Source of the DNA: Planococcus shenhongbingii
Lineage (GTDB): Bacteria; Bacillota; Bacilli; Bacillales_A; Planococcaceae
Direction of reading: 5' to 3'
Length of the DNA: 64,000 nucleotides
Assembly: GCF_030413635.1 (NCBI RefSeq)
Contig: NZ_CP129235.1
Location: forward strand, 3,162,001 to 3,226,000
Shown: piece by piece, positions 15,985 through 44,172 of the stretch
Numbering within the stretch: position 1 is the stretch's first letter
Layout: the number at the start of each line of letters is the position of its first letter
Notes under the pieces: generated by a model
Seen by the model: the letters and a program-made list of their open reading frames with translations, nothing else
The model's database searches: none
What the model was told of the DNA's origin: nothing
Translations under genes and position numbers: made by a program

Positions 15985-16265
15985 CTCAGTCAACCTTTCC
16001 ATCGATGCATGCCGCTTATTGAACCAAGGTTTTATCCCGCTTTAACGGTCAATAAACTCCCTCTTCGCCACTTGGGAGATCACTGGCAGCAAAAGCCCGA
16101 CTGGATCAACCAACAATCAATAGGAGATAAAGCTCCCATCGGTCGAAGTTTCTCTTTAATGCCCAGAACTCAACTATTGGTGCTGAATTGAACTTGCATC
16201 TTCATTAGTTGTCATTATACTAAATAATTTTATCAATGCCATCTGACATTCGTCACGTACCAGAT
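15985..16265. other. Unassigned gap between mbl and epuA-like gene
   Basis: About 285 bases. In Bacillus flhO and flhP occupy this position; neither is present. On the minus strand it holds several short paired segments (for example GGGAG/CTCCC), and TATAAT at 16213-16218, but no ORF with a ribosome site. Confidence 0.4.
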
Positions 16266-21969: not shown

Positions 21970-22839
<870 letters not shown>

Positions 22840-22948
22840 TTATTATTTTTTCTTCATATTCGAACAAAGTTATTGCCCTGCCTTATTCAGCAGTTTAGAT
22901 CAACCGGCATTCAGCGGAATTAAGAAACTCAGCTGTACACAGTTTCTC

Positions 22949-25012
<2,064 letters not shown>

Positions 25013-41740: not shown

Positions 41741-43039
41741 TCAGTTTGCGCTCTGTCCCAGGTCGGACTTTGCACTTGTGACCGGATCAATTGTTTCTCT
41801 GCGGATATCTGCGCCAAGCCCACGAAGCTTATTGACAATATTCGAATATCCGCGTTCGATATGATAAATTTCCCGTATTTCTGTTTCGCCTTCTGCAAGC
41901 AAACCGGCAATAACCAATGCCGCACCTGCCCGTAAATCAGAAGCCACCACAGTTGCCGATGTCAACGGAGTCGGCCCGGTAATTACCGCTGCGCGCCCTT
42001 CAACCCGTCCACTTGCATTCATGCGGCGCAATTCATCAATATGCTTGAAACGGGCCGAATAAATCGTATCCGTGATCATTGAAGAACCCGTCGCTTGCGT
42101 CATTAATACTGAAAATGGCTGCTGTAAATCCGTTGCAAATCCTGGATATACCAGTGTCTTCACATCAATTGCCTGAAGTGAGGCCGATTTTGGAATATAA
42201 ATGGATTCTTCGTTTTCTTGTACATCGACTCCCATTTCACGCAATTTTGCTGTTAAAGCTTCCATATGGAATGGAATAACGTTATCAACCAGTACGCCAT
42301 CTCCAATTGCAGCTGCCATGATCATGAATGTTCCTGCTTCTATACGGTCCGGGATGATTGTATGGTTTGTTCCGTGCAGCTCTTCAACGCCATCAATGCG
42401 GATTACGTTCGTACCCGCTCCTTTGATTTTTGCTCCCATGTTTGTGAGAAGCGTTGCCACATCGATAATTTCAGGTTCTTTTGCTGCGTTCTCAATAGTT
42501 GTCTGGCCTTTAGCAAGAACTGCCGCCAACATGATATTGATAGTCGCTCCTACACTGACAACATCCAGGTAGATTTTCGCACCGCGAAGTTCATCCGCAC
42601 GCAAATAAATGGCACCATGTTCGTTCGTCACTTTTGCTCCGAGCGCTTCAAAACCTTTGATGTGCTGGTCAATCGGGCGAGGCCCTAAAAAGCATCCGCC
42701 TGGCAGCCCGATTGCCGCATGTTTAAAACGGCCAAGCATAGCACCCATCATATAGTAAGAAGCCCGCAGTTTTTTCACATTCCCGTTTGGCAATGGCATA
42801 TCAATCATATGAGTCGGATCGATTTTCATAGTGCCATCTTCAAATGACACCTCGCCGCCGATTTCTTCTAAAATACTTTTCAGTGTCCAGACGTCAGAAA
42901 TTTCCGGTAAGCCTTCAATTTGCACAGGTGAGTTCGCTAAAATGGACGCAGGAATCAATGCCACTGCGCTGTTTTTTGCCCCATTCACTTTAATCGTGCC
43001 GGATAAGCGTTTACCGCCTTTTACTTTATATACATCCAT
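41741..43039 (-). CDS. murAB: UDP-N-acetylglucosamine 1-carboxyvinyltransferase 2
   Basis: 432 residues; a second MurA. The catalytic Cys is in [15 protein letters not shown] and the N terminus carries [10 protein letters not shown]. It catalyses the same enolpyruvyl transfer as murA at 17.6 kb; Firmicutes commonly carry both. AAAGGAG lies 12 bases before the start. Upstream there is a 108-bp tandem repeat. Confidence 0.93.
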
Positions 43040-43062
43040 GCGATTTAATTTCTCCTTTATCC

Positions 43063-43350
43063 CACTTTAAATGACAGTACGACTTCCGCTTTCACGGAAA
43101 TCTACTGTCTTTAAAAGTCCGATTGGTTCAACTAGCTTTCAGCTTTGCTGAAAGCAGTTTCTCTGTATTCCACTTTAAACGACAGTACGACTTCCGCTAT
43201 CACGAAAATCTACTATCCTTAAAAGTCCGATTGGTTCAACTAGTGTTCAGCCAAGCTGAACACAGTTTCTCTGTATTCCACTTTAAATGACAGTACAATT
43301 TCCGCTTTCGCAAAAATCTACTGTCTTTAAAAGTCCGATTGGTTCGACTA
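43063..43350. repeat. 108-bp tandem repeat, 2.7 copies, with covarying hairpin
   Basis: Copies begin at 43063, 43171 and 43279, exactly 108 bases apart, each opening CACTTTAA. The first two carry a perfect 9-bp hairpin (GCTTTCAGC/GCTGAAAGC and GTGTTCAGC/GCTGAACAC); the third stops before it. It fills the gap between tal and murAB. Confidence 0.9.
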
Positions 43351-43375
43351 TCTAACTAAAACTAATTATCTTCAC

Positions 43376-43470
43376 TTGCCGACAAAGGCATGTCCACGGG
43401 CTAAGCGAAGCAAGAAGACAGGCGGTCTTCCTGTCTTCTTGCGGGAGCTCTGCCCAAAGCGGCCGGAGCG
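43376..43470. repeat. Dispersed 90-bp element A, copy 4
   Basis: The 5' part is diverged, the rest matches (GTCCACGGGCTAAGCG, CTGCCCAAAGCGGCC). The central stem GCAAGAAGACAG/CTGTCTTCTTGC is 12 bp and perfect. It ends 40 bases past the tal stop. Confidence 0.8.
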
Positions 43471-43509
43471 ACATGTAAAAGTTGATTTTTCATTTCAACA
43501 TATATAGTT

Positions 43510-44172
43510 TTATTTTACTTCTTCTTCAATAGAGCGTTTTTCCCAGTCTGCCAGGAATGCTTCGATTCCTTTGTCAGTCAATGGGTGCTTGAACATTTGC
43601 TGCATTACTTTGATCGGCATTGTACCGATATGCGCTCCGTTCAGTGCTGCTTCTGTTACGTGCTGTGGATGGCGGATGGAAGCTGCAATGATTTCTGTTT
43701 TGATGTCATGGATAGCAAAAATGTCAGCAATTGTCGCGATCAAGTCCATGCCATTGTGTCCGATATCATCTAAACGGCCAAGGAAAGGAGATACATAAGA
43801 TGCGCCTGCACGTGCTGCAAGAAGTGCTTGGTTCGCACTGAAAATCAATGTTACGTTGACTTTTGTGCCTTCTGCCGCAAGAACTGAACAAGCTTTCAAA
43901 CCGTCCGGCGTCATTGGCAATTTCACGGTAATGTTAGGTGCCAAAGCAGCCAATTCACGACCTTCTTTGATCATACCTTCTGCATCAAGTGCGATAACTT
44001 CCCCGCTGATTGAGCCATCAACAAGTGCTGCAATTTCTTTTAAACGGTCGTGGAAAGAAACATTTTTTTCTTTCGCCACTAGAGAAGGGTTTGTCGTTAC
44101 ACCTGAAAGAATCCCCCATGAGTGTGCTTCTTTAATCTCTTCGAAGTTTGCTGTATCGATAAAAAATTTCAT
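43510..44172 (-). CDS. tal: Transaldolase / fructose-6-phosphate aldolase family
   Basis: 220 residues, the short TalC/FSA type. [16 protein letters not shown] at the start, Schiff-base lysine in NITVKLPMT, then [14 protein letters not shown]. Bacillus YwjH of this size is a transaldolase; fructose-6-phosphate aldolase activity cannot be excluded. AGGAGG precedes the ATG. It follows fbaA. Confidence 0.92.

Follow-up and report, generated by a model that had tools for sequence, protein, structure and literature searches.

The 108-bp tandem repeat located between tal and murAB in Planococcus shenhongbingii is a local pile-up of a dispersed, hairpin-forming mobile element and not a local feature. 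This element is most probably (probability of about 0.8) a non-autonomous mobile DNA repeat of the bcr1-like kind in Bacillales, with insertion at ATAAA (TTTAT) and this pentamer left on both sides. It is dispersed and flanked by pentamers, empty sites are present at two loci, and its structure is constrained across the family. What looked like a local RNA becomes in this way a mobile repeat found across Bacillales, for which a target is defined, empty sites are known and covariation is clear. Coordinates are given in the window, the whole stretch of 64,000 nucleotides that was analysed, unless another locus is named.

One tandem array was detected at 43049-43350 by Tandem Repeats Finder (period 108, 2.8 copies, 87% matches, 0% indels). 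The element cores were found 108 apart as well (43112, 43220 and 43328, converted from genome coordinates), which confirms the 108-bp tandem repeat described in an earlier sequence-only reading. The array lies between two ORFs of the minus strand, 41741..43039 (432 aa), which we take to be murAB, a UDP-GlcNAc carboxyvinyltransferase, and 43510..44172 (220 aa), presumably the transaldolase-like tal, both names following that reading. On the minus strand the order of the unit is ATAAA-GWGAAACT-HP1-TAGTTGAWCCAATCGG-HP2-GCGGG-ATAAA. Two ATAAA (TTTAT) pentamers enclose a hairpin with variable letters (HP1), then the conserved core (TAGTTGAWCCAATCGG) and then another, long hairpin (HP2), and the length in the family is mostly 120-160 bp. 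HP2 is longer than HP1, is present in each unit and was absent from the earlier description.

All three units are on the minus strand and were scored with R1, a covariance model built from 24 copies of this genome. Unit 1, adjoining murAB (43056..43168; 110.7 bits, E 3e-24), is a full element with both hairpins and with the pentamers ATAAA on the right and ATACA on the left. Its core, TAGTTGAACCAATCGGACTTTTA, is at 43112..43134 and its HP2 at 43059..43123 (minus strand; fold z = -6.2), with an end a few bases 5' of the murAB Shine-Dalgarno. The right-end ATAAA (43056..43060, TTTAT on the plus strand) is located within ATAAAGGAG, the Shine-Dalgarno itself. Unit 2 (43169..43276; 78.1 bits, together with the sequence) is also full, with a core at 43220..43242 and a left pentamer decayed to ATACA. 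Unit 3, adjoining tal (43277..43361; 43.5 bits), is cut and has neither the left part nor HP1, and its core (43328..43350) carries one mismatch. Another full copy was found in the window at 16031..16159 (minus strand; R1 87.6 bits, and 90.5 bits with a further model, R2). Two weak and decayed R1 matches were also observed on the minus strand at 22804-22953 (29.4 bits) and 1472-1553 (26.8 bits).

The element is widespread in this genome, a single contig of 3.98 Mb. The array used as a BLAST query gave 30 matches, itself included. The 23-base core was found at 33 sites with at most 3 mismatches versus 0 for a reversed control, and R1 gave 48 matches. Alignment A1 contains 24 of the 27 copies with both ends found, the irregular L012, L025 and L029 being left out. 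In Rfam 15, the sole match in the window at gathering score was an L31 leader located elsewhere in it. Six other copy-bearing loci searched at a relaxed E-value yielded only a sub-threshold STnc540 match; it overlaps the start of one copy (L005, 1403-1523) and was taken as chance, given its 22.5 bits against a gathering score of 38.

Mobility was addressed by searching the joined flanks of 7 loci, of 12 prepared, in six genus genomes; six junctions were read, L010 being left out, and 2 of the 6 showed clean empty sites. At the first of these loci (L014), the element is absent from all six compared genomes. The empty sites read ..TTCTTATAAAACGGGAGGG.. in G032 and ..TTCTTATAAATTGGAGGG.. in G060, each with a single ATAAA, versus two ATAAA in the filled site of this genome, ..TTTTTATAAA-element-ATAAAACTGGAGGG.., and the remaining four genomes have diverged at this site. 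The second locus, flanked by genes that we take to be rpsO and pnp, is filled in three genomes (this one, G006 and G029) and empty in four, with ATATA in G033, G008 and G060 and ATAAA in G032. The single ATAAA or ATATA at these empty sites in related genomes indicates that the family moves. The compared genomes lack the element, or have a diverged one, at the other four junctions (L004, L006, L023 and L025), where the sequence is too different to show the pentamer. Among 168 copies with both ends found, the left pentamer is ATAAA in 149 and the right one in 131, and base preference weakens beyond these pentamers, none of that strength being observed there. Such flanks are compatible with target-site duplication as well as with site-specific exchange at ATAAA. 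Several of the insertions are located at ATAAAGGAG or at a TAA stop codon, and many copies consequently take up the interval separating two genes.

The host range is broad. R1 found copies in 35 of the 36 genus genomes, at 1 to 48 each, and none in the remaining one. At class level, R2 matches were found in 38 of 299 genomes and 18 of 118 genera, with copy numbers that are lower bounds since at most 10 candidates were scored per genome; in the own family, 18 of 28 genomes had R2 matches among the matches listed. Model matches at E up to 0.5 were also seen in two genomes from other families of the class, 38 in G052 and 15 in G057, and may be diverged relatives. An exact-core scan of named genomes returned at least 119 stretches. 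The 80 listed include Lysinibacillus, Sporosarcina, Rummeliibacillus, Neobacillus, Cytobacillus, Peribacillus, Domibacillus, Psychrobacillus and others, which we take to be Bacillales; none of these 80 loci is named as a B. cereus-group species, and several are Bacillus sp. Outside Planococcus, most copies measure 150-160 bp (range 120-192, n = 73) and the HP2 loop is longer; this collection leaves out 10 sites that lacked a clear end, together with any site less than 70 bases from the end of its locus.

Mobile replicons were searched as well. In IMG/VR, the exact core was found in none of the stretches, and clear copies were present in 3 of the 5 retrieved with a looser pattern. These copies are on contigs classed as viral (L427, L429 and L430), and the element may on that account ride in prophages. 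Phages gave no match to either of two different copies. Plasmids gave none to a Planococcus copy, and 5 plasmid records matched a Sporosarcina copy. A 73-base match (82%) was noted at 221556-221624 of plasmid CP079755.1, named as Klebsiella grimontii, for which a mislabelled or mixed assembly is possible.

A covariation test, of the kind proposed in the sequence-only reading, was performed on 48 copies (alignment A2, made of 40 of the 73 both-ended copies from outside Planococcus and 8 from this genome). Doubly changed cells numbered 75, compared with 12.9 +/- 3.0 after shuffling and 7-18 when partners were slid; the structure was itself predicted from this alignment, and a cell represents a sequence and not an event. 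With the same reservation, 96.2% of cells were paired versus 89.0% in shuffles, and 19 of 31 pairs showed double changes versus 8.6 in shuffles and 5-12 with slid partners. The earlier proposal, that what is kept is pairing and not sequence, thus holds for the family as modelled. Pairing could alternatively be kept by mutation, through template switching, and not by need, and the hundreds of copies make the family a good natural test of paired stems kept by selection against template switching.

In the two window copies, two HP1 stem positions and their partners have changed together, as had been described, between the inner stem of unit 1 (GCTTTCAGC-TTT-GCTGAAAGC, 43135..43155) and that of unit 2 (GTGTTCAGC-CAA-GCTGAACAC, 43243..43263). 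For these two copies alone, a single template-switch event explains this change about as well and is an adequate rival. In such a quasi-palindrome mutation, one arm would be copied from the other during replication, several letters changing at once with pairing restored, and no selection on pairing would be needed at tal-murAB. This origin is a serious possibility for the two units, if one slightly short of an even chance. The units differ at 13 of 108 positions and 7 of these differences are clustered within the 21-bp hairpin (Fisher p = 0.003), where they make up two adjacent pairs and the entire loop. The mechanism is documented (PMC8794818), and at one locus the two HP1 arms now form a complete palindrome on either side of two unread bases. 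This locus (L129, Neobacillus kokaensis, 1754-1896) may hold a template-switch footprint or an assembly fault. Full-arm conversion is however rare, as it was seen at 1 of 272 sites, and it would erase a tandem G.A mismatch outside the HP1 variable stem, which persists in 160 of the 175 copies that were located independently of its left-arm letters (320 sites, 184 with a paired inner arm, 175 copies scored; an earlier count of 203 of 214 used a pattern that already contained those letters). Loop inversion must be rare as well, since HP1 loops on the sense strand are pyrimidine-rich in 168 of 219 distinct HP1 strings and purine-rich in 9, the others being short or mixed.

These 219 strings match G[AT]GAAACT with at most 2 changes and have at least 6 of 10 Watson-Crick pairs, a filter that inflates two proportions, that of paired cells and that of A or T in the outer pair. 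Read with this bias, the pair beyond the tandem G.A is T-A in 151, A-T in 44, C-G in 5 and A.A in 10. The window copies are of the A.A kind, both having this mismatch as the outer closing pair of HP1. Mismatches in HP1 are G.T in 54 cases versus A.C in 45 (binomial p 0.42), a ratio that should be unbiased by the filter; no folded strand is singled out, which counts against strand-specific selection on an RNA. In HP2, changes between units 1 and 2 read against the predicted fold are uncompensated, two C-G having become U.G and an A.A mismatch G.G.

The sequence-only reading had also implied a tandem RNA at tal-murAB. This part found no support, the unit being a dispersed mobile element and the 108-bp array being restricted to this genome among the 30 tal-murAB loci read, from 40 genomes in which the gene pair was matched. 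Absence of the unit from relatives had been set beforehand as what would refute the sequence-only reading, which passes this test, since the core is kept beside murAB in 22 of the 30 regions with at most 4 of 14 letters changed. Two of the genomes carry an extra, separate copy beside the old one. In G062 (L245), a full element with ATAAA on both sides is inserted at the Shine-Dalgarno ATAAA, between the old HP2 and the murAB Shine-Dalgarno, and in L259 the separate element is found upstream of the old copy. The G062 case shows one way for neighbouring copies to arise. The array units are alike at 87%, compared with 71-83% between other copies and the array when matches exceed 70 bases (71-100% for the complete set). 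They are thus somewhat closer to each other than to other copies, so that a local duplication is, from these identities, also a likely origin. The array could accordingly have formed from an old copy that abuts the murAB ribosome-binding site, by a new insertion at the shared ATAAA or by local duplication.

The conservation of this old copy raises the possibility that it has been co-opted as an RNA leader in which HP2 tunes murAB translation or mRNA life, and that it is kept for this reason. In any case, a cell-wall gene offers here a genus-wide example of a ribosome-binding site with a mobile hairpin placed on it. A leader role fits with the 22 of 30 regions that keep the core and with predicted folds in which the HP2 base pairs just 5' of the Shine-Dalgarno in 22 of 22 cases, a CTTT-like arm with an AAAG-like arm, despite a stem interior that varies; these are single folds, the murAB leader alignment being too gappy for pair counts. 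The folds reach z <= -2.0 in 14 of 22 leaders but are weak, with z above -2.0, in the other 8. Moreover, the core is absent in 8 of the 30 regions, and in six of these tal and murAB are only 19-26 bp apart, which indicates that the leader is dispensable. On balance such a role for the modelled hairpin is unlikely.

A repeated transcription terminator or insulator was considered as well and is very improbable. On the plus strand, AGTTTCTCT comes after HP1 and two units were flagged as terminator-like, yet on the sense strand the sequence that comes after HP1 is TAGTTGAACC, with no T run. In this genome, 20 independent loci are co-oriented with both neighbours versus 3 opposed (two-sided binomial p 0.0005), or 27 versus 3 by copy, of 33, genes being taken as long ORFs and not from annotation. 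This bias would suit a terminator but is not seen in other Bacillales loci, where the counts are 25 versus 20 copies. It may stem from the presence of ATAAA on the sense strand at stop codons and Shine-Dalgarno sites.

Concerning the mode of spread of a bcr1-like mobile repeat, the element encodes no protein, shows no visible terminal inverted repeats and carries HP1 and HP2 at its ends. It would insert at ATAAA (TTTAT) and leave the pentamer on each side, an enzyme would presumably recognise the folded hairpins during movement, and copies that lose pairing would stop spreading. No mobilising enzyme was found, and Y1 transposases do not track copy number in the 36 genus genomes with both counts. 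In these, the 21 genomes with Y1 average 6.3 copies and the 15 without it 8.5, and G006 and G029 have 23 copies each and no Y1 protein. These counts speak against a REP-type repeat moved on single-stranded hairpins by a Y1 (RAYT/IS200-like) transposase, which is highly doubtful even though a Y1 protein is encoded in 24 of 40 genus genomes. The two end hairpins and the fixed pentamer of the element also recall IS200/IS605 ends. The Y1 matches of the genus are RAYT-like in their low copy number, at one to three per genome in those 24 members, and the single Y1 transposase-like match of this genome is at G000:C1:3099622-3099957. A structure-guided element class, in which a non-Y1 enzyme would read two hairpins by their shape and base pairing would itself be the inherited condition for moving, throughout much of Bacillales, with the HP1 stem letters free and the tandem G.A mismatch, the core and the TTTAT target fixed, is distinctly unlikely.

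The element can be compared with several known families. REP/REPIN elements are dispersed intergenic hairpins that occur in tandem clusters and are associated with RAYT transposases. The element resembles them in its dispersed intergenic hairpins and tandem clusters, but it is much longer and has two different hairpins, a TTTAT target and no tie to Y1 genes. Like MITEs, it is short, non-coding, dispersed and mobile, with a short direct repeat at its target and two loci with clean empty sites. Unlike MITEs, it uses one fixed target pentamer and has no visible terminal inverted repeats, its consensus ends GTGAAACT and GCGGG not being inverted copies when compared by eye.

The closest likeness is with bcr1. 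In the literature, bcr1 is described as a MITE-like, TTTAT-linked repeat of 147 or 167 bp restricted to the B. cereus group (PMC2267715, PMC6542083, PMC3446304), intergenic, in tens of copies, with conserved stem-loops and often located in UTRs or operon gaps (PMC6542083, PMC3446304, PMC2267715, PMC8725734). By these descriptions, the Planococcus element is similar in being short and intergenic, with tens of copies, a TTTAT motif, MITE-like mobility and stem-loops. Both are flanked by TTTAT, a single one being left in the two clearest empty sites here. Both also have a conserved secondary structure, which is compared as a trait and not as a shared structure. The element thus appears to work like bcr1, a likeness drawn from published features and not from sequence. 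It differs from bcr1 as published in spanning many Bacillales genera. Given its presence in many other Bacillales, either it is not bcr1 or the published restriction of bcr1 is wrong, and repeats of the bcr1-like kind are not confined to the B. cereus group. Strings of the core were not found in the open-access papers searched, and none of the titles and abstracts returned there for repeats of Planococcus or Bacillales, for bcr1, for MITEs with TTTAT and for REPs describes this element family.

Finally, the full tal-murAB gap (470 nt) folds strongly compared with dinucleotide shuffles (z = -11.4, 0 of 100 shuffles as good), in part owing to a second repeat beside tal, whose hairpin lies in the gap too. 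This second dispersed structured repeat (43385-43490, minus strand) has 25 matches in this genome and many in other genomes of the genus, and two of its loci gave no Rfam match up to E 0.5. It has its own paired, letter-variable hairpin between conserved flanks.
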